This document shows, one piece after another, positions 17,799-64,000 of a stretch of 64,000 nt of DNA. Made by a program: the position numbers and the translations under genes. Where the stretch lies: the IMG/VR virus record IMGVR_UViG_3300023184_000045, positions 1-64,000 of that record; one strand, given 5' to 3'. The notes under the pieces are model-generated. The model saw only the letters and a program-made list of their open reading frames with translations, had not been told where the DNA came from and ran no database searches. The DNA comes from a virus. How positions within the stretch are numbered: the stretch's first letter is position 1; each line of letters opens with the position of its first letter.

Positions 17799-17806
17799 TA
17801 TTTATC
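17799..17806 (-). promoter_or_regulatory. T4-type late promoter core GATAAATA
   Basis: The minus strand reads GATAAATA (7/8 to the T4 core, invariant ATAAATA kept), overlapping the TGA stop of the 3,047-aa gene and 20 bases upstream of the ATG at 17779. It would start a transcript for the cyanophage-like block. Confidence 0.5.
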
Positions 17807-28380: not shown

Positions 28381-31300
28381 TTATCCTCCGAATACTATTG
28401 TCATTGCAATAGATTTTCCTGCTGAAATTCCGCCCGAGCTGCCAGTGTATCCTGCACCAACGCTGCCTGCATATCCTATGCTGCCAGAGTAACCAGTTTG
28501 ACCTAGATCAAATATTTGGAATACTCCTACCATACTGCCATATGTATAAGACACATAGTACAGTGTAGCAGGTGCATCATATGGTACTGTAAATGTTACT
28601 GTAGCATTTGAACCACCGTTATTAGTTATCCCAGATGAGTAGTAATTGCTGGCTCCAGTAGTGCCAACAGTTTTAATAATAAACCCTTCGGATCCAACAT
28701 TAAAATAGTATGTGTATCCACGGGCTAGTGTTATTGTAGGATTGTTTACTCCGTTGATTACAAAAGCTGATGTAGTTGGTGATGTTACTGTGTAGTTAAC
28801 GCCGCCTGCAATACCTTGACTGCCAGTGTAGCCAATTGCCGTGCTGGCCGATCCGGTGTATCCTGTACCTGTACTACCTGTATAGCCCAAACTTCCAGTG
28901 CTACCTGTATATCCAGTGTCACCCTGGATTGCACCTGGCAATTCTCTAATTTGTATGATTACACCAGAACTAATGGTTCCTACCATGGTCAGTGTTGTGC
29001 CAGTGATTGAGTAGTCAACTGTTGGGCGCTGTACTACACCATTAGCCATTACCAAGGCGCTGTCATTGGTTATGCCATTGCTGACTGTAAATGTATTACC
29101 ACCAGTGGTAGTATACAATCTGGTCAAGAATGGTGTATAAGCTGGCCCAAATACCTGTGTAGTAATTTCAATTTGTGCTGCCAATGGAGGTGCTTCGCTA
29201 AATGTAATAACACTACCTAACAATGAATATGAACTCTTTAGCTGTATAACACCATTTAAGTTTATAGTTGTATTGTTTATGTTTCGAGGAGTAACACTAA
29301 GAGTAAATGCCAGTGTAGATCCATCACCAGTAAAAGTATCAACTATACCAGTGTAACTAAGTTGTCCAACTGACCCAGTATATCCTGCACCGATACTACC
29401 TGTATAACCAGGAGCAGTACTAACCGATCCAACATATCCTATGCTGCCACTGTAGCCAATTGAACCCGAATATCCAAGTGGTCCTATAAATCCAATTGAC
29501 GCGGCTTCAACCCATTGTGTGCTAGATCCGTCGTCTGTATAAGTGAGCAGTACGCCAATTGTTGTGTCAAACCATCTATCACCAGCTGCTGGACTTGTTG
29601 GCGCGGTGTCAGAGAAATAGTAAGCGCCTGCACCTGCTCCACCGCCGCCACCACCAGAGCTGTACGGAGAACCATTGGCCCAAAACACGCCGCCAGTGGT
29701 AACCAGTCGTCCACCAATGTATACGTTACCGGCAACACCGGCACCACCCCCAACTACCAGGGCGCCAGTTGTGCTACTTGTGCTGTCAGTTGGTAATATC
29801 GTTCCACTGGCTAAACCAGTCCAAGAAATTGACCCTGATGTAGTCCATATGTATGTTCTATATCCGCCCGCAACAGTAACAATAGGTGATCCTGTTGTTC
29901 CCGTTGCTGCGTCAAAGCTGTCTGGATATCGTATAACAACAATACCCGATCCACCGTTGTCAACATAGCCAACATATGGAGCCCAGGGATACTGGCCACC
30001 ACCGCCACCACCAGTATTTTGTCCACCACCGCTAATTGTAGCAGCATTATATCCACTGCCCATGGCTCCAGCCGCACCACCAGTTGCGCCACCTTGTCCG
30101 CCGCCTGCGCCGCCTGCGCCAGGTGTTGCGCCCGAACCACCGCCACCGCCTGCCCAATAGTAACTGGTTCCAGTAATTGAATTTGCCGCACCTATACCGC
30201 CGTTGCCACCTGTGGTACCAGATTGATTTCCGCCCGGACCGCCTGCACCACCGCCGCCGCCAGCTGCGCCTACAGCGCCGTCGCTTGAACCGCCTGCGTA
30301 CCCTTGCCCACTGGTTCCTGCACCAGGCGTGCCAACTGCAAGACCAGTGGAATAAGTGCTGCCCGCGCCACCACCTGACCCTCCACTAAGGCCATTCATG
30401 TTTTGATAATAGCCACCACCGCCACCACCACCAATTGCATTTATACCAAATGGTGATGTTGCGTTATATGTTGATATTGCACCATTGTTAACAATGGTAA
30501 ATGCATTGGTAGAATTGTCTACGATAGTAGCATCTTGCAGTGTTAACAAACTGGTTTGTGTACCAGTAATGGCACTGATGTTTGCTCCGCTGCTCTGTGT
30601 AGTAGATAGTTTGCTCGAAGGCGGTGTAAATGCTCCTGTATAGACTGCTACACCTTTGACTACACGGAAATTATTTATGTTTCCAGTCACGTATCCGCTT
30701 GCTAAAACGTCCCCAGTATCACCAATGTACCAATTTGAGCCTACTCCATTTAAATTTATGCCACTTGCATTGTATGGAGTACCAACAATTGTGCCATTCA
30801 CATATAAACTAAGTGTTCCACTATATCGTACCAGTGCTAAATGTACCCAAGTATTGTATACAATTGTACCCCCTTGTATTACTGGGAAAGTACCATTCAT
30901 TGCAACTTGATATGCTGTAATAGTTCCACTAGCGTGTCCTGCAATAAGACTTAGTGCGCCGCTTGTAAAACTATTATAGTTACTAAAAATAACTGGATAC
31001 GATGAAGTTCTGGCAGTTAAGTAACTCCAACACTCTACTGTGAAATCTCCTGTACCAAATTGAAGTGGCGAAGCTGAAGCTATGGTTAGATACTGACTAG
31101 TGCCATTGAAACTGCCTGAATAATTAAGTCTGTCGCTGATGTAGGAAGTACTACCACTGCCGCCTGCTGTGTATGCTGCTGTTGCGCCGATACCGCCAGC
31201 ACCAACGATTACAGCAACATTAGCATCAGTACTTACGCTGTAGCCAGATGCAGCCAAGTATCCGCCACCTCCGCCGCCTGCCTGAGTACCACCTCCGCTG

Positions 31301-34300
31301 CCGCCAGCAACAACCAAATATTCAATGGTAGACGGTGCTAGCCCAGTATAGGTCATTAGTCCACCAACATACAAGTTACCTTTAATGCCAGCACCGCCAC
31401 GTACTTGCAATGCACCTGTTAAGGATGTAGTTGCTACTGTGGTATTCGATATTACAATTTGATTGTTACCATCAAAACTGCTGCTGCCTCCGCCGGTGCC
31501 AGCACTACCTGTGTATCCTATACCAATCGACCCCGCGTAGCCGATTGATCCAGCATAGCCGATTGATCCAGCATAGCCAACTCCGATTGATCCAGTATAG
31601 CCAACTCCAATTGATCCAGTATAACCAACTGACCCGTTGTATCCGTTGCCGCTGCCCCCAGAACTAAATGGTGTTCCGTTGGCCCAGAATATACCATCGG
31701 TAGTAATTAATCTTCCACCAACATATACATTACCAGCAATACCAGCACCACCACTTACTACTAGTGCGCCACTAGTTGTACTTGTGCTTAAACTTAAATC
31801 TGGAGGAGTTGTACCTAAAGTTATTGTCCCGGCACCAGTGAATTTATATATTCTATATCCGCCGGTTGTTGTGTATGTAACTGTTCCAGTGGTCGCCGAT
31901 GCTGCATCATAGGTGTCAGCATATCGAATGATAACAACACCAGATCCGCCGCGGCCTTCAGCACCGTTATTTGTGCCTACGCTACCGCCGCCACCAGTAT
32001 TTGCTACGCCGTTTTGACCAGTGTTATTACCAACTTGAAGAGATCCGTTGCCACCGCCGCCAGTACCACCCATTGCGTAGTAGCTGGCGCCACCACCTGC
32101 ATAATATGTTCCAGAACCAGCTGGCCATTCTTTACCGGCGCCGCCTGCGCCAGGATACCCTGATCCAGCAGCGCCTGCACCGCCGCCGCCAGTGACATAG
32201 TATCCGCTGCTAGAAGCACCACCATCGTTACCATAACCGCCACTGGCGCTAGCTGGTTGTAATCCATAACCGCCACGGTCAGCAACCCTGGATGTTCCAG
32301 CACCCGATCCACCACTATTACCAATGCCATATTGTTGGCCGCCGCCGCCACCTAACGCAGTAATAGTTGATGATCCAGATAATTGTAAAGTTGAATCAAT
32401 ACCGTTAGTGGCAACAGCGCCGCCAGCGCCCACTGAAATGGTCAATGTATAGCCAGGGGAAACAGATGATGTTCCCATTACAAAACCGCCTGCACCACCT
32501 CCGCCGCCGTTACCGTCATTGCCTGTTCCGCCACCACCACCGCCGCCTGCAATCACTAAGTAATCAAATGCCGATGGCGCATTTCCTAAATCGGGTGAGT
32601 ATCCAACACGTAACCCTCTGCCAATGCCGGCACCGCCTGCTACTATTAATGCGCCAGTAGTAGTTGATGTCGACGGCGTAGTGTTGCTGGTTATGATCTG
32701 TTGTGTAGTTGTGCCGCTGAATGTACCAGCTGATCCTGCATAGCCAATTGATCCCGAGTAGCCAATTGATCCTGCATATCCTAATCCTGCCGAACCAGTG
32801 TAACCAGCTGGACCCGAACTGGTAAACGATGCACCATTGGCCCAAAATATACCACCACTGGTAATTAAACTGCCGGTAGTGGTAATATTTCCACTGGCAA
32901 CAATACTGTTGGCATATTCTGTATTGGTTATCGTTTCATAGTTTAATGTAGTAATGTTACCAGTTACTACTAAATTGCCACCAATGTATAAGTCGCCGGA
33001 TACGCCTACTCCGCCAGTGACTACTAATGCGCCTGTGTTAGCACTAGTACTTGGAATTGCACTATAGGATAGTGTGTTGTAGTATTGGCCAGCAGTATCT
33101 GTCAGTACCGTACCGGTGGTTGTTGCATCGTATGTATCTTTATGGTAATAAAGATTAATCTTATAATTAACGCTGCCAGATAAACTTACTGTTTCGGTGT
33201 ATACAACACTATCATTTGTATATAGGTAATTAAATGTTAGTGTTGATCCAGTTTTTCGTACTCGGAATCTAAATGCAATATTACCAACATTGGTGAATGC
33301 ATAATGTATCAAAGGTCGAGCCAGGCCAGCGGATGGATATGCCGTATAGCTGGCCATATCAAGTGCCGCAGTATAAGTGCTTGTGTCGACGTTTAAATAA
33401 CCTATCCCAATTTCGCCTGTGTACATACCAATTCCAGGGAATTCAATTTTAAAATCAAAGTCTGGGCTTGCTGTTGTAAATGTATAGTTAGCAGGATGAT
33501 TGTAACCCGTAGTAGCATTAGTTAACGATATTGAACTTATATACCCAGATGTTACTGCTGTTGCCGATCCAATGTATACATTGCCGTTAATTCCGGCACC
33601 GCCTGCGACTACTAATGCACCTGTTGTAGTGCTAGTTGACGCAGTGGTGTTGCTGGTTATAATCTGCTGTGTAGTTGTCCCACTAAAAGTACCTACTGAT
33701 CCAGCATAGCCAATTGATCCAGTATAACCAATTCCACCAACACTTCCGCTGTAACCGGTTGATCCACTATATCCAACACTTCCGCTGTAACCTGCTGATC
33801 CACTATATCCAATTGGGCCGCTACTAGTAAACGATGTACCATTTGACCAAAATATACCCTGCGTAGTAGGAATTACTAAATTACCGCCAATATATAAATT
33901 GCCTGCTATACCAGCGCCACCACTGACTACTAATGCGCCAGATGTGGTGCTTGTGCTAGTGCTAGTAGCATTGGCTGTACCCGAAGCATTAAAACTAATT
34001 GTCCCGCTGGTTAAGAACGTGTATATTACATAGCTGCCACTTGTAGTTACTGTTGCGTTTGTTGTTGTTGCGGTTGCATAGGTATTAGGATGACGAATAA
34101 TTACAATACCTGAGCCACCAGCACTACCATTACCGCCACCACCTCCGCCGGTATTTGCAGCACCATTTCTTCCCGGACTAGCGCCAGATCCGTTGCCACC
34201 TCCGCCCAGTCCACCAACAGTTGCACCAGTTGAGCCAGCACCGCCGCCTGCATAATACGTAGGAGTTCCAGAAATATTTGTTTGTACGCCGACACCACCA

Positions 34301-37300
34301 TCGGTTGGAGTATTGCTCAACGATGTGTTTAATGCAGCAGCGCCAGCACCGCCTCCACCGCCGCCTGCATAGTGTGTGGATCCGGTACCACCTGCATAAC
34401 CTTGTCCTGTTGTGCCAGAACCGGCTGGTACTGTAGGTTCTGCAGATCCACCGCCGGATCCACCATTGGCACCACCAGCACTCATTGATACACCGCCACC
34501 AGCATTGCCACCGCCACTGTTAGGTCCACCGCCACCACCACCTAGAGATACGATAGATACTGCACCGCCTATGATAGAAGAATTTCCACCTTTAAATCCG
34601 GTTACTTCTTCGCCACTAACAGCAGTTCCACCGTTACCAATTGTTACGGTATACGTTACACTAGCTGATACTGCTGCAGGAGATTCTGCGCTGGCTCCAC
34701 CGCCTGACATTTCTCCAACTACACTAGATCTATAACCACCTGCACCACCACCACCAGACCAATAATATCCACCACCAGACCCGCCGCCTGCAACTACAAC
34801 ATACTCAATAGTAGCAGGGGCGCCGGATGGGGTAGTGTACACTCCACCAACAAATAAATTACCAGCAATGCCGCCGCCGCCGGCAACCTGCAATGCGCCT
34901 GTTATGGCACTAGTAGATGGTGTTGTATTTGATGTTATTATCTGTTGTGTAGTTGTGCCGCTGAACGTACCCGTTGATCCAGTATATCCTGCATTACCAA
35001 TGCTTCCACTATAACCAGCCGAACCAGCATAACCGCTTGATCCGGCATATCCAGCAGATCCTGCATAGCCAACTCCGATTGATCCTGCATAGCCGCTTGA
35101 TCCGGCATAGCCAACACTGCCTGCATATCCGGCAGATCCTGCATAGCCAACACTGCCTGCATAGCCAACCGAACCAACGTATCCTAAATCACCGCGGTCA
35201 CCAGTCCTGGCAAATGTAACAATCAGCGATGTGCCATTAGTAAATGATCCCGGACCCGACAAGTAGGAGATGGGCACATGGAAATGGTTGTGTACCGGCG
35301 CGCCTTCTTCGGTATGATTACCAATAATTGCAAACATTGCATAGTTTGCATTGTTTCCATTTTCTACTACAGTAAAATGTCCCTTGATGCTGGATGTTGA
35401 GTCGTCAATAGTTTGTAAGAAACTGTAGGCCGATACTCCCAACTTATCATAAAAGTTGATGTACATTACCGTAGCAGACGATAGTGTAGTTGAATCAAAT
35501 TCAACGTTGCCTGATGTAGGATCGGTTATGGTAGTATCACTGCTGTAAGTGTAAGAAAAAGCCTCGCCACCAAAATTACCATCGTTACCTTTAGAACCCG
35601 TATAACCAACGCTGCCAGCGTATCCAGCACTACCTGCATAACCTTTACTGCCAGCATATCCCAACGCACCGCTGGCACCCTTAGGACCCTGACCGCCCTG
35701 AATACTATCTTCAATAGCTACATAATCAATTTGAGTTTGATGTGCTACATTGCCGGTGTTACTATGGTATAGTCTAATTGTGGCTGCTCCACTATTAACA
35801 TAATTAGTAGAATCTATTACTTCTAATGCAAACTGATAAAAGCCGCCTAATCCTGTATAAGATCCAATATTATCCCATACTGTTGTTAAATTATTATATA
35901 CTTGAACATAAATTATGTGGCCAGAATTCTGTGTATAATTAATATTTAATGCAACACGATTGAACTTAACGACACCAGTAAATCCAACAGTTACTATCCA
36001 AGCAGGTCCTGCATGCGTGCCGTCAGTAATGGTATAATAATTGCCATCGTTAAAAGTTTGTATGTCAGTCAACCCGCCAGACACATAAACACCATCAGTT
36101 AGCGATATTGATTGCGCTGTATAAGTCAACGATTCTGGTGTAATACCGCTAGCACCAACAGGGCCTGTTGCTCCTGTTGCACCAAATGATCCTGTATAGC
36201 CAATTGGACCTGTTGCGCCTTGGTTACCTTGTGGTCCAGTTACATTACCTACGTCTGCAAATGCAGTTCCTGACCAAACAGCCAAGTGACCATTTGCAGC
36301 TATAATGTAGCCATCACCAAAGTTGCCCACTACAGTATCGTCTGGCCCATTTAACCATGTTAAACTAGGAACTGATCCAAGTATGGTAATACTAGTTCCA
36401 TCAATACCTTTGCTACCTGTGTAACCAAGCGAGCCTGCATAACCAACGCTGCCGACATAGCCTTCGCTGCCTGTATAGCCGACGCCGATCGAGCCAGTAT
36501 AACCAAATGCGCCAGTTGATCCGCTGGCACCCATAACGCCTGTTGCACCAGATGATCCTACTGGGCCAACAATTTTTCCAATATCATTCCATTGTCCGGT
36601 TGACACGTTCCAGAACCATAATGCGCCATCTAAGTGGGCAGCACCGTCGCCGGTGGTAACTATCCAGCCGTAGCCAGCAAACGTATTCCAATCCATTGGC
36701 GCTGCGGGCAAGTCGGCAATAGTTGCTTTGGTACCTTGTAAGGTAACACTAACACCCTGCGCACCGGTTGGACCTGTTGCTCCAGTGGCTCCCGAAGCAC
36801 CAGCGCCTGTTGCACCACGACTGCCTATGTATCCAGCACTGCCGGTATAGCCGTTACTGCCAGAGTAACCCGAAGCCCCAGTGGCTCCAAATCCTGTAGC
36901 ACCCGTTGGACCAGTTGCGCCTTGTGTACCCGGTGTACCTCTGCTGCCAACATAACCATTTGACCCTGCATACCCAGAACTACCTGTGTAGCCAATTGGG
37001 CCAGTGGCACCAGTGTTGTAATACGGAACACCATTTGCGTAGAAATAATGGTCTGAGTATATATTACCAGTTATTGTAACATTGCCTGTGGCTGTTAAAT
37101 CTACTGTAGATATTAAATCGGCACCAGTGATAGCAGCATATGTACCAGTTGTTATAAAACTTTCTGCGTATACATTTCCAGTTACAACAATTGTATTAGC
37201 ATATTCTGTATTGGTTATTATTTCGTAGTTTAGTGTAGTAATGTTACCAGTTACTACTAAATTGCCGCCAACATATAAATTACCTGTGATACCTGCACCA

Positions 37301-37488
37301 CCTGCTACAGTTAATGCCCCTGTTGAATAGTCAGTGCTAGCTGTGGTATTTGCTACAAAAAATGTATTATCTGTGCCGTGAACTCCCTGTGCAACCCGCG
37401 ACCAGGCATTGTTTGTAGCAGAATAGATGTAGGTAATCCCATCTATCACTGTTACTGTATTGCCCGCTGGTGTTGTTGGAAATGTCAT
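28381..37488 (-). CDS. 3,035-aa giant modular tail-fibre protein
   Basis: Starts MTFPTTPAGNTVTVIDGITY. Nine copies of a fibre module with consensus TTGALVVAGGAGIAGNVYIG recur between residues ~45 and ~2,570, each linking to collagen-like hexads GYxGSx. Gly-rich domains lie at ~896-1136, ~1643-1850 and ~2056-2520; the third contains one LamG domain (~2120-2340, FTVECWSYLT) in its middle. Residues ~2716-2796 carry two VxxNGVxQ-type fibre modules. Residues ~2893-2993 form a cupredoxin-like domain that lacks the usual Cys and His. The Gly-X-Y hexads suggest a trimeric fibre. No S74 autoproteolytic chaperone is seen at the C-terminus, which ends IAMTIVFGG. ATG start with no strong Shine-Dalgarno sequence. 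A tail-fibre role is inferred from module content. Confidence 0.92.
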   Translation of the reverse strand: MTFPTTPAGNTVTVIDGITYIYSATNNAWSRVAQGVHGTDNTFFVANTTASTDYSTGALTVAGGAGITGNLYVGGNLVVTGNITTLNYEIITNTEYANTIVVTGNVYAESFITTGTYAAITGADLISTVDLTATGNVTITGNIYSDHYFYANGVPYYNTGATGPIGYTGSSGYAGSNGYVGSRGTPGTQGATGPTGATGFGATGASGYSGSNGYTGSAGYIGSRGATGAGASGATGATGPTGAQGVSVTLQGTKATIADLPAAPMDWNTFAGYGWIVTTGDGAAHLDGALWFWNVSTGQWNDIGKIVGPVGSSGATGVMGASGSTGAFGYTGSIGVGYTGSEGYVGSVGYAGSLGYTGSKGIDGTSITILGSVPSLTWLNGPDDTVVGNFGDGYIIAANGHLAVWSGTAFADVGNVTGPQGNQGATGPIGYTGSFGATGATGPVGASGITPESLTYTAQSISLTDGVYVSGGLTDIQTFNDGNYYTITDGTHAGPAWIVTVGFTGVVKFNRVALNINYTQNSGHIIYVQVYNNLTTVWDNIGSYTGLGGFYQFALEVIDSTNYVNSGAATIRLYHSNTGNVAHQTQIDYVAIEDSIQGGQGPKGASGALGYAGSKGYAGSAGYAGSVGYTGSKGNDGNFGGEAFSYTYSSDTTITDPTSGNVEFDSTTLSSATVMYINFYDKLGVSAYSFLQTIDDSTSSIKGHFTVVENGNNANYAMFAIIGNHTEEGAPVHNHFHVPISYLSGPGSFTNGTSLIVTFARTGDRGDLGYVGSVGYAGSVGYAGSAGYAGSVGYAGSSGYAGSIGVGYAGSAGYAGSSGYAGSAGYSGSIGNAGYTGSTGTFSGTTTQQIITSNTTPSTSAITGALQVAGGGGIAGNLFVGGVYTTPSGAPATIEYVVVAGGGSGGGYYWSGGGGAGGYRSSVVGEMSGGGASAESPAAVSASVTYTVTIGNGGTAVSGEEVTGFKGGNSSIIGGAVSIVSLGGGGGGPNSGGGNAGGGVSMSAGGANGGSGGGSAEPTVPAGSGTTGQGYAGGTGSTHYAGGGGGGAGAAALNTSLSNTPTDGGVGVQTNISGTPTYYAGGGAGSTGATVGGLGGGGNGSGASPGRNGAANTGGGGGGNGSAGGSGIVIIRHPNTYATATTTNATVTTSGSYVIYTFLTSGTISFNASGTANATSTSTSTTSGALVVSGGAGIAGNLYIGGNLVIPTTQGIFWSNGTSFTSSGPIGYSGSAGYSGSVGYSGSTGYSGSVGGIGYTGSIGYAGSVGTFSGTTTQQIITSNTTASTSTTTGALVVAGGAGINGNVYIGSATAVTSGYISSISLTNATTGYNHPANYTFTTASPDFDFKIEFPGIGMYTGEIGIGYLNVDTSTYTAALDMASYTAYPSAGLARPLIHYAFTNVGNIAFRFRVRKTGSTLTFNYLYTNDSVVYTETVSLSGSVNYKINLYYHKDTYDATTTGTVLTDTAGQYYNTLSYSAIPSTSANTGALVVTGGVGVSGDLYIGGNLVVTGNITTLNYETITNTEYANSIVASGNITTTGSLITSGGIFWANGASFTSSGPAGYTGSAGLGYAGSIGYSGSIGYAGSAGTFSGTTTQQIITSNTTPSTSTTTGALIVAGGAGIGRGLRVGYSPDLGNAPSAFDYLVIAGGGGGGGTGNDGNGGGGGAGGFVMGTSSVSPGYTLTISVGAGGAVATNGIDSTLQLSGSSTITALGGGGGQQYGIGNSGGSGAGTSRVADRGGYGLQPASASGGYGNDGGASSSGYYVTGGGGAGAAGSGYPGAGGAGKEWPAGSGTYYAGGGASYYAMGGTGGGGNGSLQVGNNTGQNGVANTGGGGSVGTNNGAEGRGGSGVVIIRYADTYDAASATTGTVTYTTTGGYRIYKFTGAGTITLGTTPPDLSLSTSTTSGALVVSGGAGIAGNVYVGGRLITTDGIFWANGTPFSSGGSGNGYNGSVGYTGSIGVGYTGSIGVGYAGSIGYAGSIGYAGSIGIGYTGSAGTGGGSSSFDGNNQIVISNTTVATTSLTGALQVRGGAGIKGNLYVGGLMTYTGLAPSTIEYLVVAGGSGGGTQAGGGGGGYLAASGYSVSTDANVAVIVGAGGIGATAAYTAGGSGSTSYISDRLNYSGSFNGTSQYLTIASASPLQFGTGDFTVECWSYLTARTSSYPVIFSNYNSFTSGALSLIAGHASGTITAYQVAMNGTFPVIQGGTIVYNTWVHLALVRYSGTLSLYVNGTIVGTPYNASGINLNGVGSNWYIGDTGDVLASGYVTGNINNFRVVKGVAVYTGAFTPPSSKLSTTQSSGANISAITGTQTSLLTLQDATIVDNSTNAFTIVNNGAISTYNATSPFGINAIGGGGGGGYYQNMNGLSGGSGGGAGSTYSTGLAVGTPGAGTSGQGYAGGSSDGAVGAAGGGGGAGGPGGNQSGTTGGNGGIGAANSITGTSYYWAGGGGGSGATPGAGGAGGGQGGATGGAAGAMGSGYNAATISGGGQNTGGGGGGQYPWAPYVGYVDNGGSGIVVIRYPDSFDAATGTTGSPIVTVAGGYRTYIWTTSGSISWTGLASGTILPTDSTSSTTGALVVGGGAGVAGNVYIGGRLVTTGGVFWANGSPYSSGGGGGGAGAGAYYFSDTAPTSPAAGDRWFDTTIGVLLTYTDDGSSTQWVEAASIGFIGPLGYSGSIGYSGSIGYVGSVSTAPGYTGSIGAGYTGSVGQLSYTGIVDTFTGDGSTLAFTLSVTPRNINNTTINLNGVIQLKSSYSLLGSVITFSEAPPLAAQIEITTQVFGPAYTPFLTRLYTTTGGNTFTVSNGITNDSALVMANGVVQRPTVDYSITGTTLTMVGTISSGVIIQIRELPGAIQGDTGYTGSTGSLGYTGSTGTGYTGSASTAIGYTGSQGIAGGVNYTVTSPTTSAFVINGVNNPTITLARGYTYYFNVGSEGFIIKTVGTTGASNYYSSGITNNGGSNATVTFTVPYDAPATLYYVSYTYGSMVGVFQIFDLGQTGYSGSIGYAGSVGAGYTGSSGGISAGKSIAMTIVFGG
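34965..35195 (-). repeat. densest GYxGSx collagen-like hexad tract
   Basis: Within the 3,035-aa gene, about twelve consecutive hexads of the form GYAGSx (Gly every third residue) encode a short collagen-like shaft. Plus-strand units are near-repeats such as GATCCTGCATAGCC. Similar shorter tracts lie near 28440, 28850, 29390, 31510-31640, 32730, 33690-33810, 35590, 36420 and 36830. Confidence 0.85.
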
Positions 37489-39436: not shown

Positions 39437-42400
39437 CTAATAGAATCCGCCATCAATTGTTGCAGAAACATTGCCAACTGTTAGTGTTTTAGTAGTAGAA
39501 GCGTAAGTCATGTATTGATTGTCAGTTATAAACCCAGATGCGCCGGCAATTAGTACACGACCTTCAATTAAATGCGGATCCTTAAATTCATCTGCGGTAA
39601 CTGTACCAGTAAAATTACCAATGCCTTCCACTCTGATTGGCTTGCTAAATTCCCATGCATCGGTTGTATGAACGTAATTCATTGTTGCCGATCCATCGGT
39701 ACCTAAATTTAGAGTTATGCCGCCGCCACTGGATTGCTCGGCGTTTAGGGAGTCATTGCCTAATTCTATATTTAAATCTTTGATGCTAACTGTAGTTGCA
39801 TTTACTGTGGTTGTAGTACCTTGTACTGTTAAATTACCACCTATTAGCACATCACTTGTAGTTGTTATCGAATATGCACTAATATTGCCGTTGGCAACAA
39901 TGTCCTCCCCAACATAAACATTACCACCAATGCCAGCACCACCTACTACTTGTAAAGCACCAGACGTTGTACTAGTTGACGGATCTGTATTAGCTGTTAC
40001 TAGTTGCTCTGACCCCAAGAAAGTGCCAGCTGGTCCAACACTGCCTGTGTATCCAACACCTCGAGAACCGGCAAACCCAATTCCTGTAGGGCCAGTGGCG
40101 CCAGGTGGCCCTGACGCACCAATACTACCTGCATATCCTCTTAATCCAGTTGAGCCAGGAATTCCTTGTAATCCTTGTCCAGTTGCACCAGTTGGGCCGG
40201 TAGCGCCAGGTGTACCAGTAGGGCCAGTAGGGCCTACTGTTCCGGTATCTCCTTTAATACCGGCTGCACCCGAAAGATCAGTTGTGTAAACATAGCTGTT
40301 GCCAGTCCACAAGTATAGTCTAGAATCCTCTGCGTCATCAACGTTTCCAGTATCAATTATAGCAAATTGCCCAGGCACAATATCAATTGGGGTAGTATCT
40401 GCATCTAAATTAGATACTGAACTATAAGTTTTTGCAATTGAGAATCCTAATCCTGTTAAACCAGTGGCACCAGTTGGGCCGGTATCGCCAGTCTGGCCTG
40501 TTATACCCGTTGATCCCCTAGATCCTTGTGGTCCAGTTGCTCCTTGTAATCCAACTCCGGTTGCACCGCGTGGGCCAGTAAACCCAGTAGCACCAATTGG
40601 ACCAGTTGCGCCCCCTGGGTCTCCAGGAGAGCCGGTATTGCCTTGGCTGCCAGTGTAACCTATGCCGGTTGCACCAGTCGGTCCAGTTGCTCCTGTAGAC
40701 CCATAAAATCCAGTTGGACCAGTTGGACCAGTTGCTCCAGTTAAGCCAGTTGCTCCCAATATTCCTTGCAGTCCAGTTGCACCGGTTATACCCGAGATTC
40801 CAGTTGCACCTTGGGTACCATTTAACCCGTCGTTTCCTGAAATTCCAGTGGCGCCCCGGGGTCCAGCTACGCCAGTTGCTCCCTTTGGCCCAACTATACC
40901 AGTTGCTCCTTCCAATCCAGTGGCCCCATCTGGACCAATCGGCCCGGTTGCTCCAGGCGGGCCAGTGTCGCCAGTGACACCATCTGTTCCACTAATACCA
41001 GTTGCTCCAGTTAAGCCAGTTGACCCTATAATACCTTGTACACCGGTTGCGCCAACCGGGCCAATTTGGCCAGTGGCACCGGTGTTTCCAACTAATCCAG
41101 TAGCACCAATCAATCCTTGTGGCCCGATTACACCAGTTGCGCCTGGGATACCAGTAGCACCAAGCGGGCCAGCAACACCAGTTGCTCCTATACCAGTTGC
41201 CCCACGTGGACCAGTTAATCCTTGTGGCCCAGTTGCCCCGTCGGCGCCTGTTGCGCCTGCTACCCCTATAGCGCCAGTATCACCAATTGGACCAATTAGT
41301 CCTGTTGCACCAATTAGTCCAGTGTCTCCAGTGGCACCCTGGATACCAGTAGAACCTCTTGGCCCTGTTGCTCCTGGTGGGCCCGATGGGCCGACTAGTC
41401 CGGTTGCCCCTGGGATACCCGGGTCGCCGGTTAAGCCAGTTGCACCTAAAGAGCCAGTTGCACCTAAAGAGCCAGTTGCTCCAGTGGCTCCTATTCCTGT
41501 TGCACCGCGTAATCCTATTAATCCCTGTGGGCCAGTAGCACCGTCAACTCCGGTTGCTCCTGCCAATCCTTGTGGACCTGTTGCCCCTGTGATGCCAAGA
41601 GAACCAGTTGCACCGAGTAAACCAGTGGCACCTGTTTCGCCAGCACCGGTTGCCCCAATTGGTCCCGCTGGGCCTATTAGCCCGGTAGCACCGGCAACGC
41701 CGGTTGCACCTAAAATACCTTGTAGACCAGTGGCACCAGCCGGTCCAGTAATTCCAGTAGCACCACGAATACCAGTGGCACCAGTGGGACCCGGTGTACC
41801 AGCTGATCCTACTACTCCTGTTGCCCCCGGTGCACCGGTTGCGCCAATTGGTCCCATAACACCTGCGCCAGTTGCTCCATTTGCTCCAGTTGCACCTGTT
41901 AATCCTTGCAGTCCAGTTGCACCAATTTCTCCGTATAAAGTCCCATCTACGTGGCGTAATTGATCTGTATATATAGACCCTGCATATACATTGCCGCCAA
42001 TGCCTGCGCCTCCTGCAACAATCAGAGCACCTGTAATTGTACTAGTACTGTCTGTGCTATTGGATAATGTTAATGATCCAACATCAAATGTTCCTGCATT
42101 GCCTGTTATAACGCCACCTGCCGATGCTGTTCCATCAGAAATAAATTTCAAATGCCCAGTTGTATTGTCCCAGGCCAAAAATGCATATTTTTCTATTCCA
42201 TTGACTGATTTGTAATAATTAAACTCAATTCCGATATCTTTACCGTCGTCAACAGTTAGGGATGTACCATCAGTGTGTAAAATTATTAATGCATCATTTA
42301 TTGTTGTGTTTGTAGATTCAATAGTAGTCACATTGCCAGCTAATACTAGATTACCTGTTATTGTTAAATCCACAGTGGTTAGTGATGTTTGTACACCAAC

Positions 42401-42643
42401 TTGCGTAATATAAGGCTGCGATGCTGTTACTACTGTACCAGTTAATTGATCAGCAAATATATTATTTGCATATACATTGCCCGCAATGCCAACTCCCCCG
42501 GCTACTTTAACAGCACCAGTAGTGGTGCTGGTGCTTTCTGTAGTATTGGATACTCTGAATGTGGTTCCAAGTACCGTTGAAGTTACATTACTTGCTGTTC
42601 CAAGATTTTTTAATGGAGCAGGCTGTCGTAGATATCTAAACAT
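39437..42643 (-). CDS. 1,068-aa collagen-like tail fibre
   Basis: N-terminus [20 protein letters not shown], then three copies of the TTGAxxVxGGxGIxGNVY module (residues ~40, ~200 and ~890). Residues ~240-733 are almost continuous Gly-X-Y triplets dominated by GATGxx(GPx), a collagen-like shaft of roughly 160 triplets with a few breaks. Residues ~733-793 are a globular interruption ([20 protein letters not shown]), followed by more triplets to ~875. The C-terminal ~180 residues ([35 protein letters not shown]) resemble the tip of long fibres in T4-like phages. Collagen-like phage proteins form stable trimers. ATG start, 7 bases after the MAAPN gene. Strong candidate for a long fibre shaft. 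Confidence 0.9.
40445..41925 (-). repeat. collagen-like Gly-X-Y coding tract
   Basis: About 1.5 kb coding for Gly-X-Y triplets, most often GAT, GLx, GPx and GIx, in the 1,068-aa fibre. At DNA level it is a diffuse 9-base periodicity (GGxGCxACx) rather than exact tandem copies. On the plus strand it creates a long false Pro-Val-Ala reading frame. Confidence 0.92.
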
Positions 42644-43092: not shown

Positions 43093-46000
43093 TTAAGCTA
43101 ATCTAATATAAAAACCGCACCATTTATCCAGATATCTGAGTGTAGTAACATCATTGGCGGTACTAGCAGCATAATTGGAATAATACCCTTCGTTGTACAT
43201 TTCAATGGTAACTTGCTGCCCAGGAGCAGCCAATCCAGCATGCACTACTGCAACAGACATGTCAGAATCTGCTGTGTAAGGCTGGCTACCCCAAACAAGA
43301 TTGCCAGTTAAACTGCCTGTTACTGTAACATTAGGATACGGCCCGCAAATAGTTTCTTCTGTGCCAGGCGGTGGCGGGGGAGGAGCAGGTGGCTGTGGGG
43401 GCGGTGGCGGGGGGGGAGCAGGTGGCGGGGGAGGAGCAGGTGGTTCATATTTTGTAATTTTTATATCAGTTACATACAAACTTGCACCTAGCGCAGTTCC
43501 ACCAGAGAAGTCAAAACTTCCACTTACAAAAACAAATTTATAACGCCCAGTTTGTCCAGATCCTACAGTGTAGGTTATTTGTGCCCAAGCTGTGGTTGCA
43601 CCACCACTGTCACCTGTTTGATTGAGCAATTCAATTGTAGCACCTGTATCAACGTTAAGTAAATAGGCAAAAATATCGTAAGCATCATTGCCGCCTTGCG
43701 CTTTCCACCAGAAATATATAACATCGTCGGTAACTAAATCTACAGCAGTTTTTGTAACCAAATATGGGCCATGTATAATACCATAGCCAACTGTAGTGCC
43801 TGTGCTAAACAAGTGTATTGACTTGGCGGGTGCAGTGATACTAGACGGTAAATCAGTATCTAAAGTTGCACTAAATGTAAAGCCGCTAGGCACTTGATCG
43901 TCGCCAACACCAAATCCGCCCGATCCCTGAGGATGTTGAGTTGAATCAGTTGGTGTTGGATATCCTTCAATTGTAGATAGTCCGTCTAATTTTATCTGGC
44001 TATTAAAAACTTTCCATCCTGGGGTTGATAGTGTATTGTCTCCATTGTCTAATAGCGATCCTTGACTAAAATTACCATTATAAAAAGTAAATAGTACTTT
44101 AGCAATAAACCCGCCGGACCAGCTTAGTGTTACTTTTTTAGACATTGCAGGCGATGTCCAATGTGCCCAAATTGTAATTCGAGCGCCGACACCGCCTATG
44201 CCAGTGATAATGCCTTCACCATTTACAGTAGTAATAGTTAAATTTGTAGGTCCGTACGTAACCCCGTTAACAATCATTGTTGTGCCCGGGTCGTCAACAA
44301 ATAATTCATAAGAAGTGGCCGTGCCTCCGCCAGTCTGAGTATCATTTGCAACTACTTTAAAGTTTAGAACTTCATTAAATCCACCACCACCTACTAGGTA
44401 ACCATTAGTGTCAACTGTAATATTTAATCCGCTAACATGTGAATTTTGTTCACCGTCGGTATAATACGCAGACCATGGTCCTCTACCCGGCGGTGGTGGT
44501 GCGGGAGGGCTCCCCGACGTGTCATTGACCCTGACAGCAGTTGAACTTGCAACTATTGGCCCATTGGTTGACCCAGTTCTTAAATTAATAGTTATTGTTT
44601 CAGGGCCTTCAGTTGTGAAATCATTCACCAACCGCCGTTTTAAGTAGCCTGTGTTATCTTTAATGTATATTGACCCAGAATTTGCTTGATCATCAAAGTC
44701 TGCACTATTAGTAGTTCCTTCGTTAGTCCAATAAACTATCGAGTCATCTGGAACATTTATTGTTTTGATAACGTAATTAACACTTCTATTTTCATCCAAT
44801 GTACTAATTGCACTAAATGAATTGGTTTGTTCAAATAGATTTAAAATTAATCCATGATTTTGAGAAAACAAATTAACTGGAATTGAAATAATTTCGCCTG
44901 TTTCTTGAACTTGTACAATGTCCCCTGAATGATATGTCACTGTAGTATCACACCCGGCATTATTTAAATCAATGTAATAGCCACCATCTTTAAAATTCTG
45001 CCCATACCCCCCTCGGATGCTCGGTAACACACTTATTTTAGTTTCGTCGGCAAATATATCATTGGCCGCCCCTTCACCTAAGAATATGCTCATGTTTCCA
45101 GCTGGAACATCATATTTGTATTTTTGAGCATTGGTTACTGTGCCTGTATTTGATTTAGGAGCATATATAACATTGCCGTTTACTCTCCACTGTCCCGGCA
45201 CTGCTATGCTTACAGCAACCATACTTAAATTGTTTAATTTGGTTGTGTCCCAGTTAGCCCACTCCCATTTTGCATAAACGTCTGGTGGACCTACAGCTAA
45301 TGTACCTGGCACTTGGTTGATTGCTACTACATGCCCGGGGGAACTATAAGTTGCTGCATAGATTTGATTATCAAATACAGGTGCGTCTAACCAAATTGGT
45401 AAATCAAATGCATTGTGCGAAGTAACCCATGTTATTATAGTCCAGTAAGCAGCAGAAATAGATGTAGTATCAGCAGGTGGGGAAAATTTAAATGTAGTAG
45501 CATGACTAACTGGATTATTTTTACTAAATCTACTGTAAGTTCTAACGCGGTAGTTGTCGCCAGGATACACATCTGCCATATCATGGCCATCATCATCGTC
45601 TTGCTCCCAGAGCTTGGTAGTACTCGTACTTCTAACCAAACTTGTTTTATTCTTATACCACCAAGTCAATAAGTTTGAACTGTTATCAATTGTGCCACCT
45701 GTGTAAATTGAATAATATTGTTCTGCAGGTATTAGATTTGTTATAGTAACCGGTGTTGCTGTTGCAACAATTATCCCAGACTCTGACTCTGTTCGTAATA
45801 CTAAAATCAGTCTCTGGTCGGACTCTGGCACGTTAGCAGCTATTTTTCTAGTAATTGCACCAGCATTGTTGGTGATTGTAACCGACCCGCTGCTGGCAGA
45901 ATCTGCAAAATAAGAACTTGCTACATTTCCAAAATTACTCCAATATAATACAGTATTATTTTCTACATTAGTAGTATAAACGTTAAATGTAACTGTTCCA

Positions 46001-47676
46001 TTTTCATTGACTATCTGTGTATCGGGTCTGACAAAATATGTTCTTTGAGTCTTAGAAGTATCGTATACCACTACCGTATCTGCTAGTGCAACAACCGGGC
46101 CGGCTAACGATTTTGTTCTAAGTTCCATTATTATTGTTTCGGGACCTTCGTCTAAATGGTCTGCTACTGCCGTTTTAGAAAATGTAGCAGAATTATTTTG
46201 TATTACAACACTTCCATGCCCTGTGCCGGTTGTTAATGCCCAGCTAATGGCAGCATATCCGCTATCACCATCTGCCGACAAAAAATCTGAATATGTTCCG
46301 CCGTTGTCAGCATAAGTTTGTGAAAATTCCAATGGAACTTCAGGAATCAGATCTCTACCGTCTGACCCACTGTATGCCCCATTATCGCCAGCGGTGCTAT
46401 ATAAAGTTCCGCTATCTCCGCCTAACCACCCGCCACCACCGCCACCACTTCCTGGACCATCGGTTGGTGTAGCCACTCCGTTGTTACCACTGGTTGTTTC
46501 GCTTGAAACATAAAGCTGTTGAGGTTTGCCGCTGCCATTAACACTAGATCCTGCACCGCCGCCACCGCCGCCACCAGCAGCTACAATTTTAAGTGAGTTA
46601 TTAACCAACAGCAGTGATGCGCCACCGCCGCCGCCGCCGGATCCAGAACTCCCCCAAGGGCCACTTTTACCCCCAGTGCCCCCATTGTATCCAATGGTTG
46701 TTACAAATAAATTAAATGCAGCAATATTGCCAGACAAGGTTGACACCGAACCAACATAACTTCCCGGTTTATATACTGTGCTAGTAGGAAGTATAGAACT
46801 ATTGTAAACAACTTGTCCGTGTACTATTACCCAATATTGTTGTGCTGTAGTAGCATCTTGAGTTACTTCATCATTCAGAGTGTACCATCCATTGCCAATT
46901 GTTATTGCAGCAGGATCATTGGTTAGATTGGCAACTAAACTAGAATAATATGTTGCATCTGTTCCCTGGCCGCCTGCGCCGCCATTGGCGCTGGCATTAA
47001 AATACCCGCCTCCTCCACCACCACCTATGTAAAATCTAAGTGTGTCCCCAGGAGTCACCGGTAACGTACCAGTAACTCTATGTCCAGGATAACCTGAATA
47101 ACCAGGATAGCGATCGTTGCCCCCTGCGCCGCCACCTGCACCAGCAATGTCAATTTCAACACTGTCAACATCTGCAGGTACAACCCAGGCATACATCCCA
47201 GGAGTATCGTATGTTGCCGTTGATTGAATTCCAAAATCAGCTGCCGATGTAGTACCTATATTGTTCCAATATAAAACTGTATCATTTTTAACATTAGTTG
47301 TAGTAATTGTATACGTCAAAGTTTCAGATTCTTTTATATACAATTTGTCTGGTGCAATAGTATAAGTTGGCGGATCTAATACATATACAATTTTAGACAC
47401 TGTTGGTGTTATACCAACTAATGTTACAGTCAATGGCTCGTTGTCGTCTGGCAAATAATCGTTTTTAAGATTTAAAACTAATTGCAAGAATCCCGGTTCA
47501 ACAGGTCCAACTACAAACTCGCCTGATAAGCTAGTAGGCGGCTTTCCGTTAATTTGATCAAAATCATCTAATGTTATCCCAGCACCAGAAATTACGTAAG
47601 GTATTCTGGTGCCGTCGGGCTTATTGGTTTTTAATGTAAATATAACATTTTTTCCATTTTCAAAAATTTGGTTCAT
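43093..47676 (-). CDS. 1,527-aa Calx-beta/Gly-rich protein with LCCL-like C-terminus
   Basis: Four Calx-beta-like modules: residues ~1-97, ~103-155 continuing at ~490-550 (split), ~555-660 and ~980-1080, each with the pattern (V/I)xENxxxxYxIxTxNVxxDxxxYWxNxG and a DxxxEGPETIxxxLRT strand. The second is interrupted by a Gly-rich domain (~160-485, VEIDIAGAGGGAGG). Residues ~660-975 and ~1095-1405 are beta-rich regions without a recognised family. A Pro-rich hinge (~1411-1440, runs of P with A/Q) leads to an LCCL-like domain (~1449-1527: VWGSQPYTADSD, AVVHAGLAAPGQQVTIEM, RYLDKWCGFYIRL). ATG start. Binding or scaffold role on the virion inferred; no enzyme motif seen. Confidence 0.88.
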   Translation of the reverse strand: MNQIFENGKNVIFTLKTNKPDGTRIPYVISGAGITLDDFDQINGKPPTSLSGEFVVGPVEPGFLQLVLNLKNDYLPDDNEPLTVTLVGITPTVSKIVYVLDPPTYTIAPDKLYIKESETLTYTITTTNVKNDTVLYWNNIGTTSAADFGIQSTATYDTPGMYAWVVPADVDSVEIDIAGAGGGAGGNDRYPGYSGYPGHRVTGTLPVTPGDTLRFYIGGGGGGGYFNASANGGAGGQGTDATYYSSLVANLTNDPAAITIGNGWYTLNDEVTQDATTAQQYWVIVHGQVVYNSSILPTSTVYKPGSYVGSVSTLSGNIAAFNLFVTTIGYNGGTGGKSGPWGSSGSGGGGGGASLLLVNNSLKIVAAGGGGGGGAGSSVNGSGKPQQLYVSSETTSGNNGVATPTDGPGSGGGGGGWLGGDSGTLYSTAGDNGAYSGSDGRDLIPEVPLEFSQTYADNGGTYSDFLSADGDSGYAAISWALTTGTGHGSVVIQNNSATFSKTAVADHLDEGPETIIMELRTKSLAGPVVALADTVVVYDTSKTQRTYFVRPDTQIVNENGTVTFNVYTTNVENNTVLYWSNFGNVASSYFADSASSGSVTITNNAGAITRKIAANVPESDQRLILVLRTESESGIIVATATPVTITNLIPAEQYYSIYTGGTIDNSSNLLTWWYKNKTSLVRSTSTTKLWEQDDDDGHDMADVYPGDNYRVRTYSRFSKNNPVSHATTFKFSPPADTTSISAAYWTIITWVTSHNAFDLPIWLDAPVFDNQIYAATYSSPGHVVAINQVPGTLAVGPPDVYAKWEWANWDTTKLNNLSMVAVSIAVPGQWRVNGNVIYAPKSNTGTVTNAQKYKYDVPAGNMSIFLGEGAANDIFADETKISVLPSIRGGYGQNFKDGGYYIDLNNAGCDTTVTYHSGDIVQVQETGEIISIPVNLFSQNHGLILNLFEQTNSFSAISTLDENRSVNYVIKTINVPDDSIVYWTNEGTTNSADFDDQANSGSIYIKDNTGYLKRRLVNDFTTEGPETITINLRTGSTNGPIVASSTAVRVNDTSGSPPAPPPPGRGPWSAYYTDGEQNSHVSGLNITVDTNGYLVGGGGFNEVLNFKVVANDTQTGGGTATSYELFVDDPGTTMIVNGVTYGPTNLTITTVNGEGIITGIGGVGARITIWAHWTSPAMSKKVTLSWSGGFIAKVLFTFYNGNFSQGSLLDNGDNTLSTPGWKVFNSQIKLDGLSTIEGYPTPTDSTQHPQGSGGFGVGDDQVPSGFTFSATLDTDLPSSITAPAKSIHLFSTGTTVGYGIIHGPYLVTKTAVDLVTDDVIYFWWKAQGGNDAYDIFAYLLNVDTGATIELLNQTGDSGGATTAWAQITYTVGSGQTGRYKFVFVSGSFDFSGGTALGASLYVTDIKITKYEPPAPPPPPAPPPPPPPQPPAPPPPPPGTEETICGPYPNVTVTGSLTGNLVWGSQPYTADSDMSVAVVHAGLAAPGQQVTIEMYNEGYYSNYAASTANDVTTLRYLDKWCGFYIRLA

Positions 47677-60587: not shown

Positions 60588-62024
60588 TTAAGGTGCAGGA
60601 TTACCAACTGTATGACTATCTTCAGACTCGGTATTATACGTGTCCACTGATCCATCTTCGTCCCAACCTGCGGCAGTTAAAACCATTAACCTCATACCAG
60701 TGCCGTAACGTTCTGTGCCGTATAATGCGGTATATTTGCGTTTGCCTAACGTAGGGCCACCAACAATAATATCACCATTGTTATCATACCCGCCGTCGTT
60801 TTCGTTATAAACATCAACAGTAATAGTTGTGCCTGCGCCAACAACAGCAGCAGACACTGTTCCTAGCATGTCTAGCTCGTCTGCATATCTGAATCTAGGT
60901 GAACTTAAATTATTCAAGAAAGTAACAACAAATTCACCACTCTCAGTCAATGACTGCTGTGGATACGGATTTAATATTGCTGGATTATCTTCTGACTGTA
61001 TAGTAGCCGGTCTTTTCCTACTAGGAACCGGAACATCGACTTCTCTTCCAATAAATTTTACAAACTGCTGCGGAGACGATGACCCGCTAACTACAAACAA
61101 CGGGCATCGACTTGTTTCTTGCGTAATATTGTTATTTGCTGGATTTCCGTTTACAATTCCGCGGAAAACTGCACCGCCGCGCACATGCCCTGTAATTCTA
61201 TCTACTGCTCGTTGAATTAAAACCCAACGCAAGGGGCTATTTCCATACGGCTTACTTGGGTTAGGGTTATTAACTGGATCCCAGGTACCTTCGGGAGTTT
61301 CTTCTTGACTACCTTCCCAAACTGCTAAAAACATCCCTCTATTAGTCATTGTTAGTGTATAACTCATTGGATAAGCTGCTTCAGACCCAGTAATGCTTGC
61401 AGTACGATCTAACCAAATTTTGTTAAATGCAGTGGGCATCGCGCCCGGTGTTGCAGCAGTCCAATCGAGAGGCGAGACATTGCCAACTGGCTCTGTTATT
61501 GTTCCACCTGTTAATGCTCTGGTACTATACTGTGCAATGATACCAGTGTTTGACAATTGCATTTCTGTTGCAATATGTATTGCTAGTTGTGAGTCAGACA
61601 ATTGATTAAAACAAATTCTCCAATTTGACGAATTTCCAGCAGCTGAGTAATAACTGCCAACTTGGTCTTTATAAGCCAATGGATCTACTGCTACATTTGA
61701 CGATAATATCACTATACGAGAACTTCCAGTGCCAGCGCCACTTGCAGGTGGCGTTTGAGTTCCTGTTCCAAACGAATCGTATACTAGGTCAAAATACATC
61801 GATCCAGGGTCAGTATAAGTATTAACAGTCGCTAGCCCCCGAGCGGGTCTTGTAGTCCATGACGACCCGGTATTATAAGGAGAAGCTACTCTATTATCGC
61901 CCCCTAATGTTTTTGGACCCCATGGTTGAATTATGCCAACATTGCCGGTCATTTCACTTACTATGTCATTAAGTATGGTTTCTACACTTGTAAACCCGTA
62001 CTTTGTAATATTAAAACATGCCAT
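60588..62024 (-). CDS. 478-aa virion protein, paralogue of the next upstream gene
   Basis: N-terminus MACFNITKYGFTSVETILND. Shares with the partial protein at 62044-64000 a central motif YPMSYTLTMTNRGMFLAVWE (residues ~216-235), the following LIQRxVxRxTG segment, a RCPxFxV strand and the C-terminal LxxFLxNLSSPRFRYADELD stretch. The family is not one I can name; the tail-cluster location and beta-rich composition suggest a virion component, perhaps of the baseplate. ATG with AGGAG about 9 bases upstream. The two genes are 19 bases apart and look like a tandem duplication that has diverged, with the second copy shorter by about 170 residues or more. Confidence 0.83.
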   Translation of the reverse strand: MACFNITKYGFTSVETILNDIVSEMTGNVGIIQPWGPKTLGGDNRVASPYNTGSSWTTRPARGLATVNTYTDPGSMYFDLVYDSFGTGTQTPPASGAGTGSSRIVILSSNVAVDPLAYKDQVGSYYSAAGNSSNWRICFNQLSDSQLAIHIATEMQLSNTGIIAQYSTRALTGGTITEPVGNVSPLDWTAATPGAMPTAFNKIWLDRTASITGSEAAYPMSYTLTMTNRGMFLAVWEGSQEETPEGTWDPVNNPNPSKPYGNSPLRWVLIQRAVDRITGHVRGGAVFRGIVNGNPANNNITQETSRCPLFVVSGSSSPQQFVKFIGREVDVPVPSRKRPATIQSEDNPAILNPYPQQSLTESGEFVVTFLNNLSSPRFRYADELDMLGTVSAAVVGAGTTITVDVYNENDGGYDNNGDIIVGGPTLGKRKYTALYGTERYGTGMRLMVLTAAGWDEDGSVDTYNTESEDSHTVGNPAP

Positions 62025-62043: not shown

Positions 62044-64000
62044 TTAGTGTGGTATATCTTTGAGTGCGCAGATTCTTAGGCCTGTGTTGTATGGTAAGTT
62101 AGAAGGCATTGCTCTGTAAACACGCGGCGTGCTTTCGTTATATACCCCAGATCCATTTGGTTTTTGTAATACTACATCATTACCACCTGCGCAAACATCT
62201 GCCGAAGTTTGCCCAACCATATCCAATTCTTCAGAATACCTAAATCTAGGTGTTGTTAAATTATGTAAGAATGATATTAGATATGTATTTGTCTCAGTTA
62301 GTGCAATTTGATTTGTTGTATTTAATATTGCATAACTATTAATAGTATGTGAATCTGCTGGTATTCTATACGCTGACAACATATTACTTTGCATCCATGC
62401 AGTACCAGCAGTAGCATCGCTTGCAGCACCTAGGGCGGCAAGTTGTTGATAACCTGGCAGGGATGCTGAACCCGACCCAATATATGCTATCATCGACCTA
62501 GGGTCAATTGTATCTCTGTAAGCGTCAGGGTCGCCTTGTTGCGGGTGTAAGATATCTTCTTCACGTACAACAAATTTCCAATATTTATATCCAACACTAT
62601 TAACGCAAAATACCGGGCATCTTCCTTTAGTTAAAGTTTTTCCAGTGTATCGGTTAACCGGCCGTTGTACTAAAAACCAATTAAAGAAATTATCTTTATC
62701 GGTAACACTTCTAACTGAAGTTTTTTGTATTACGCTCCAATTGCCTTCCCATACACCAAAAAATAGTCCTCTATTTGTTACAGTCATTGTGTAATTTAAC
62801 GGATATATTTCAGGGGATCCAGCAACACGAGCTTCTCTATTTAAAAATCCTTCGGCTGTTTTGTCTTTGTCAGGTGCAATCATACTACCACTATAACCCG
62901 GCGTCTGATGTGGAACATTGTTTGATCCATTTGAACCACCAAAGAATACATACTTTGTTGGTTGGGAGCCCATCATCCCAGCGCGGTCAATAGGATATTG
63001 GCCTGCAGAATTAAATATATTACTAATACCACCGTCATCTTGCAATTGCAACGGTGTACCAGCATAACAGTTTAAAGTCTGCGCTCCTACACCTACTTTG
63101 TTGTACACGCTTGTGTTGCTTACAACTTCAAATGCCAGGCGCCATGGTTGTCTATACGATTCGGGAAAACTAAATTCCAATAGGTCGTGCATCGTTAATG
63201 ATGCTTGACTATCTAATCGCACGTTGGCTTTGAGATTGTTTAAATTACTTAGATTGTCGTTTACGCTAACAACAGTGCCAATTAGCACCGGGTCACCGGC
63301 GCCTAGTAGCGTTACATTTTGCCCTTCGTAGATGATTCCTCGTTTGGTAGTGGCACTATTAGATAACTGATCTACTTCAATGTACACATTACTAGAAGTA
63401 CTTGCAGTTATGTTACCAGTAACTACGCGGCTGCTATTCAATGGATCGGTTCCACCATTAGCCTCTATAATTATTAAAAACCCAGCTGCTGTTATATCGT
63501 CGGTATCTTTTGCTTTTGCTCCGGCACCTCTAACTACAATTTTGTCATCTTGGTTAATAGTAATCTCATTACTGACTCCAAACCAAGTATAAGTTGACGA
63601 ATGTTGTTTCCAATTCTTTGCGCCGGGGCCGCTCCATTCTACAATTCCGTCAACCACCAGAATAGGATTAATACTAGTAATAGTAGTGCCAGGAGGAATA
63701 ATACTTGATGGATTAGATTCCGTTGGTTCAAGTAAAATTTCTTGACCAATAAAAAATCCTGTACCGGGTACACCACTAGTAGCATCGGTATACAGCACAT
63801 TTGCCCAAAAACCATCTCTAGGCCATAAATCAATTGATCCGTTGGCTCCGTGGGCATTTTGCCAGGTCAGGCCTGCGCCTTCAGGCTGCGCCACCGGGTC
63901 CAGGCCTGTTACTCCAATTGACAAGTATGCTGCTTCGGTATAGGGGTTTATAGTGGGGTTTATAGTAGTAGACAGTTTCCCGCCATGCTGAGAATAACTT
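62044..64000 (-). CDS. virion protein, 5' end cut by window edge
   Basis: The frame is open to the right edge. A TTG at 63924 is possible but has no Shine-Dalgarno sequence, and the codons beyond it read as ordinary protein (SQHGGKLSTTINPTINPYTE), so I treat the gene as partial, at least 651 residues. Conserved with the 478-aa paralogue: YPLNYTMTVTNRGLFFGVWE, FLVQRPVNRYTG, GRCPVFCV, FVVREEDI and LHNLTTPRFRYSEELDMVG. The N-terminal part contains TNEITINQDDKIVVRGAG-like beta segments. No catalytic motif or membrane segment. Family unknown to me; virion structural role inferred from location. Confidence 0.83.
   Translation of the reverse strand, partial: SYSQHGGKLSTTINPTINPYTEAAYLSIGVTGLDPVAQPEGAGLTWQNAHGANGSIDLWPRDGFWANVLYTDATSGVPGTGFFIGQEILLEPTESNPSSIIPPGTTITSINPILVVDGIVEWSGPGAKNWKQHSSTYTWFGVSNEITINQDDKIVVRGAGAKAKDTDDITAAGFLIIIEANGGTDPLNSSRVVTGNITASTSSNVYIEVDQLSNSATTKRGIIYEGQNVTLLGAGDPVLIGTVVSVNDNLSNLNNLKANVRLDSQASLTMHDLLEFSFPESYRQPWRLAFEVVSNTSVYNKVGVGAQTLNCYAGTPLQLQDDGGISNIFNSAGQYPIDRAGMMGSQPTKYVFFGGSNGSNNVPHQTPGYSGSMIAPDKDKTAEGFLNREARVAGSPEIYPLNYTMTVTNRGLFFGVWEGNWSVIQKTSVRSVTDKDNFFNWFLVQRPVNRYTGKTLTKGRCPVFCVNSVGYKYWKFVVREEDILHPQQGDPDAYRDTIDPRSMIAYIGSGSASLPGYQQLAALGAASDATAGTAWMQSNMLSAYRIPADSHTINSYAILNTTNQIALTETNTYLISFLHNLTTPRFRYSEELDMVGQTSADVCAGGNDVVLQKPNGSGVYNESTPRVYRAMPSNLPYNTGLRICALKDIPH

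Follow-up and report, generated by a model that had tools for sequence, protein, structure and literature searches.

Bacterial RTX adhesins such as FrhA, AhLap, and MpIBP have split Ig-like domains that bud ligand-binding domains (PMC10865825, PMC12077191). The guests, which bind sugars or other ligands, have termini that lie side by side and project off axis, and nesting can be recursive, running from beta-roll to vWFA to a further insert. FrhA is split after its single first strand, of 12 aa (PMC10865825, PMC12077191). These split Ig-like domains are the closest known arrangement to the one described here. Phage surface proteins are usually pictured as beads on a string, and we found no report of nested or split Calx-beta-like modules in phages in open-licence papers.

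The window, which is the whole stretch of DNA analyzed here, consists of bases 1–64,000 of a 123,497-base virus record. A 1,527-aa ORF (43093..47676, minus strand), with one open frame throughout, encodes four Calx-beta-like modules according to module HMM hits, and its gene context suggests a virion-surface-type protein. The record carries T4-like structural genes, with a tail sheath within the window; a portal, a major head protein, an SbcC-like nuclease subunit, and baseplate proteins are encoded beyond the window. The gene adjoins tail-sheath, tail-fiber-like, and other large modular genes, a location that points to a tail fiber or virion-surface stalk. PHROGs assigned no family to the protein, and neither a tblastn search with the protein nor a megablast search with 43000–64000 yielded matches in the phage collection. 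Two neighboring genes (60588–62024 and 62044–63924, both minus strand) each match tail sheath phrog_12249, and the latter runs on to 64950 in the record. A 3,047-aa ORF (17805–26948, minus strand) has 12 LamG domains according to a custom HMM. Long collagen-like GXY arrays, with repeats of the GYTGS/GATG type, are present in a 3,035-aa ORF (28381–37488, minus strand) and also in a 1,068-aa ORF (39437–42643, minus strand).

Module 2 of the 1,527-aa protein is discontinuous in sequence. An HMM built from ∼300 distinct phage modules of viral contigs matches it in two complementary parts, with residues ∼103–152 corresponding to model positions 1–51 (45 bits) and residues ∼481–542 to positions 47–108 (51 bits), and 328 residues between the partial matches. 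Separate half-models score 54 and 62 bits and give a net gap of 334–335 aa. The N-half (residues 102–148; 47233..47373, minus strand) comprises strands A, A', B, and C and breaks after SAADF at residue 148, and the C-half (residues 487–543; 46048..46218, minus strand) comprises strands D, E, F, and G, resumes with GHGSVVI at residue ∼487, and ends in VVYDTS, for a net insertion of ∼335 residues. The original prediction, that the module starts normally and its remaining strands follow some 330 residues later, is thus supported. Modules 3 (residues 546–650; 45727..46041, minus strand; 79.8 bits) and 4 (residues 954–1056; 44509..44817, minus strand; 94.0 bits) are uninterrupted, each a single full-length HMM hit, and are continuous at the split point, as had also been claimed. 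In a MAFFT alignment, uninterrupted modules that are 28–54% identical span both halves of module 2 and leave the guest opposite a single long gap, in line with the alignment the original prediction had proposed. The family's best-conserved residues, including the acidic E14, D46, D72, E76, and D105, are kept in module 2 and are spread over both halves. Because the half-hits are complementary and are joined by the alignment, the kept acidic residues, recurrence at the same loop, and AlphaFold2 models, it is nearly certain that a complete Gly-rich domain is nested in one module 2 beta-sandwich.

The family to which the modules were originally assigned needs qualification. The array of four stands, with module 1 being weak (21 bits), but the Pfam Calx-beta label does not. 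Even at a threshold of E ≤ 10, PF03160 (Calx-beta) matches nothing in the window's record; of 38 phage modules, three match it at E ≤ 0.01 and 11 match Ig_3. We use the name Calx-beta-like because the PF03160 cut-off is passed only in a relative, L130 (33.9 vs. 27 bits). Relative to Calx-beta (PF03160; CBD1 of the Na/Ca exchanger), phage modules share the signature E-G ... xDF ... GSVTI ... D..TEG.E ... I.DTS and have a weak similarity in fold, with Calx CBD1 (3e9t) as a weak local match in a Foldseek search of the PDB (probability 0.80, E 0.16). That search gave no match below E 0.02, and when the module profile was searched against PDB sequences, the sole match was a weak one to a cadherin. 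The modules of the window differ from Calx-beta in falling below the Pfam model and, for module 2, in having a whole domain in the C–D loop. The five acidic residues named above are conserved at ≥91% in the ∼300 modules; equivalent acidic positions bind calcium in Calx-beta domains.

The guest (residues 153–481; 46234..47220, minus strand) is a complete Gly_rich_2 domain. It scores above the cut-off of Pfam PF21722 (E 1.4e-6; 28.9 bits vs. 24.3), covers profile positions 2–210 of 226, and can be aligned from end to end with an un-nested, free-standing C-terminal Gly-rich domain, the one that follows the module array in L020 (phmmer with this one target, E 8.6e-21). A full Gly-rich domain hence fills the gap as originally proposed, and the interval claimed for it, 46210–47200, was close to that measured. 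Like other Gly_rich_2 domains of phage structural proteins, the guest passes the curated cut-off and matches the terminal domain of L020, but it is located inside another domain, rather than terminally or in line, and carries an insert of its own. The insert, 92 aa in length (residues 238–329; 46690..46965, minus strand), is absent from the L020 counterpart, has a glycine content of ∼6% compared with ∼28% around it, and has a GC3 of 0.185, whereas that of the remaining guest sequence is 0.36. Because it is extra relative to L020, glycine-poor, and lower in GC3, the insert is likely a third level of nesting, though it may instead be a lineage-specific loop expansion; a search for homologues of the 92 aa found none that were convincing. 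No further nested Gly-rich case emerged when viral contigs were scanned with module 2, a DUF4214-like nested module, and the L020 Gly-rich domain.

Gly-rich domains also act as hosts. In the 3,035-aa ORF, a LamG domain (residues 2124–2320; 30529..31119, minus strand; LamG HMM i-Evalue 1.7e-43) is nested in a Gly-rich domain, whose N part lies ahead of it (residues 2054–2119; 31132–31332; i-Evalue 2.3e-7) and whose sequence, as read directly, resumes past it. PF21722 matches at 31084–31353 in this ORF. The claim that the Gly-rich unit is both host and guest agrees with these observations and, judged from sequence, the recursive architecture holds, with LamG in a Gly-rich domain and a Gly-rich domain in a Calx-beta-like module of the same window. 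At 7100–8140 (minus strand), in a 1,757-aa ORF, a Gly-rich domain is seemingly broken by an Ig-like stretch and is likely another nest, followed by three LamG domains set among Gly-rich parts.

Recurrent use of the C–D loop is an addition to what the original prediction had claimed. We surveyed 195 sources with ∼375 non-identical module pairs; the sources were the window's record and 194 viral loci, several of which share a contig. Thirteen of the ∼375 modules are split by >40 aa, a proportion that is not an unbiased frequency because the survey was seeded by contigs matching module patterns and by later nested queries. The split is in the C–D loop in 12 of the 13 and probably in the next loop (D–E) in L208; when the model was cut at other positions, large gaps appeared only in the same split modules. 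Guests include LamG, DUF4214-like repeats, He_PIG, Gly-rich domains, and short pieces, and split modules have kept their acidic residues (E14 in 13/13, D46 in 12/13, D72 in 13/13, E76 in 13/13, and D105 in 11/11).

In the rest of the record, a 2,302-aa ORF has two modules that are split after DF by guests of about 297 and 497 aa, the larger being DUF4214-like, and a 1,254-aa ORF has a possible split module in which the pairing of halves is ambiguous. LamG guests, all confirmed by Pfam, are found singly in L024, in tandem in L087, where a second split module runs off the contig, and in four modules of one protein in L130; L053 and L055 each carry 58–66 aa in a split module. Comparison of sequences therefore places other types of guests in the same loop of related modules, in this virus and in others. 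Preference for the C–D loop is strong but not absolute, with L208 and module 3 of L130 as exceptions. In L208 (10651–14139), the guest is ∼200 aa long, matches no recognised type, and apparently occupies the D–E loop of its module, and module 3 of L130 (residues ∼1944–2170 of a 2,508-aa ORF) has a LamG in the C–D loop and an apparent second LamG in the F–G loop.

Some halves are located in separate ORFs. In L053 (1485–4830) and L055 (1557–4932), an N-half ends one ORF (911 and 912 aa, respectively) and a C-half opens a later ORF (from 4797 and 4884, respectively), with an ORF of ∼210 aa in overlapping frames between them; the halves are possibly one module split across genes. The 2,302-aa ORF of the window's record (L015, record positions 108638–119330) opens with a module C-half (MPITQSDFTPSTLTGTV...) directly after the 1,254-aa ORF, which has an N-half near residues 80–115 followed by He_PIG repeats, and these could be a second module split across genes. 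In the named phages P-SSM2, Sf-FP1, S-SKS1, and S-CAM22, either all modules are uninterrupted or LamG is present with no split module. Genome contigs scanned with the module consensus yielded no confirmed relative, and the alignment of C-halves is too variable to serve as a scan query.

Predicted structures are consistent with a single sandwich. In an AlphaFold2 model of residues 100–547, a prediction of the kind originally proposed, both halves of module 2 are confident (pLDDT ∼90–98; 96–98 over strands A–C and 90–98 over strands D–G), with strands A, A', B, and C and strands D, E, F, and G present as those of one sandwich, and the order of strands and the confidence suggest that strands pair across the halves. 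The alignment used for this model included uninterrupted modules, so the model is not independent of them, as well as three misaligned Gly-rich rows. The guest is poorly modeled (pLDDT mostly <50; pTM 0.39). A LamG-nested module of L130, modeled from an alignment without uninterrupted modules, has the same order of strands (mean pLDDT 81.5; pTM 0.66). In BFVD, the best match to both AlphaFold2 models, with 699 and 355 aligned columns, is A0A6J5T0N4 of an uncultured phage, an indication that this protein is a relative with a comparable nest.

We propose that the sandwich of module 2 closes around the insertion, with strands A–C before it and strands D–G after it. The insertion point is the C–D loop, directly past the conserved aspartate of xDF. 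Because both termini of the guest would be anchored at this one point, the guest is predicted to jut sideways from a stiff tandem array, and the split module could be a joint in the stalk that displays a receptor-binding guest to the side. The guest itself would be the receptor- or glycan-contacting part, held as in the split domains of RTX adhesins. Gly-rich tips are the receptor-binding parts of T4-like phage adhesins. By analogy with the RTX adhesins, split module 2 probably displays a binding domain on the stalk. The C–D loop may also be a permissive site of exchange, where recombination adds or swaps binding domains and leaves the stalk intact. It is conceivable, though we would not call it probable, that the loop is a general and reusable cargo port through which unrelated phages acquire and exchange binding domains on constant stalks and in which cargo carries cargo, to three levels in this window.

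The main rival accepts the same architecture but considers the insertion neutral, such that the C–D loop tolerates passengers, recombination is frequent, and the guest plays no part in binding. The heterogeneity of guests, which range from Gly-rich, LamG, DUF4214-like, and He_PIG to short pieces, is compatible with neutrality, as is the occurrence of LamG and Gly-rich domains at many other sites of the same genome. We nonetheless regard neutral insertion as rather unlikely: guests are complete domains, several of them lectin-like (LamG), and the LamG nest has persisted, as the LamG-nested modules of L024 and L130 share 42% identity across the entire nest.

Other alternatives dispute the nest itself. 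Two unrelated broken half-modules could flank the Gly-rich domain by chance and form no single sandwich. But the halves are exactly complementary, the same cut is found in several viruses, the acidic residues of a whole module are kept, and both halves are modeled with high confidence, making a chance pairing very improbable despite the existence of orphan halves (those of L053 and L055 are in different ORFs, and the 2,302-aa ORF starts with a C-half) and despite pairing across module 2 being deduced from strand order and confidence. An assembly chimera or an intein-like mobile intervening element in the gene is hardly credible. The GC3 of the guest does deviate from that of the module halves (0.36 vs. 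0.20; 0.29 vs. 0.20 without glycine codons), but the gene is a single continuous frame of 1,527 codons and the same loop is used in other contigs. We found no repeats common to the two guest junctions. The intein reading was rejected because the guest matches a known type of domain, Gly-rich, and the open frame, lack of junction repeats, and reuse of the loop elsewhere disfavor the chimera and mobile-element readings.

A recurrent loop that accepts complete domains would explain how the binding parts of phages diversify while the stalk remains unbroken. It would imply that domain annotation overlooks split modules and would indicate which parts of very large phage proteins likely contact the host. 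It would also extend to phages a principle until now described in bacterial adhesins.

Like the split Ig-like domains of RTX adhesins, module 2 is a beta-sandwich of a tandem array that is discontinuous in sequence and has a complete guest inside. Unlike FrhA, it is split in the middle of the module, at the C–D loop, into ∼48 and ∼57 residues. The hosts are Calx-beta-like, and the guests, judged from sequence, are Gly-rich, LamG, or DUF4214-like. Pfam detects no RTX repeats in the 1,527-aa protein and, in a further difference from RTX adhesins, its gene sits in a structural cluster of a tailed phage. Because of the phage structural cluster, the lack of RTX repeats, the split in mid-domain, and the other hosts and guests, the phage arrangement is similar to the RTX-adhesin split domains without belonging to their family.
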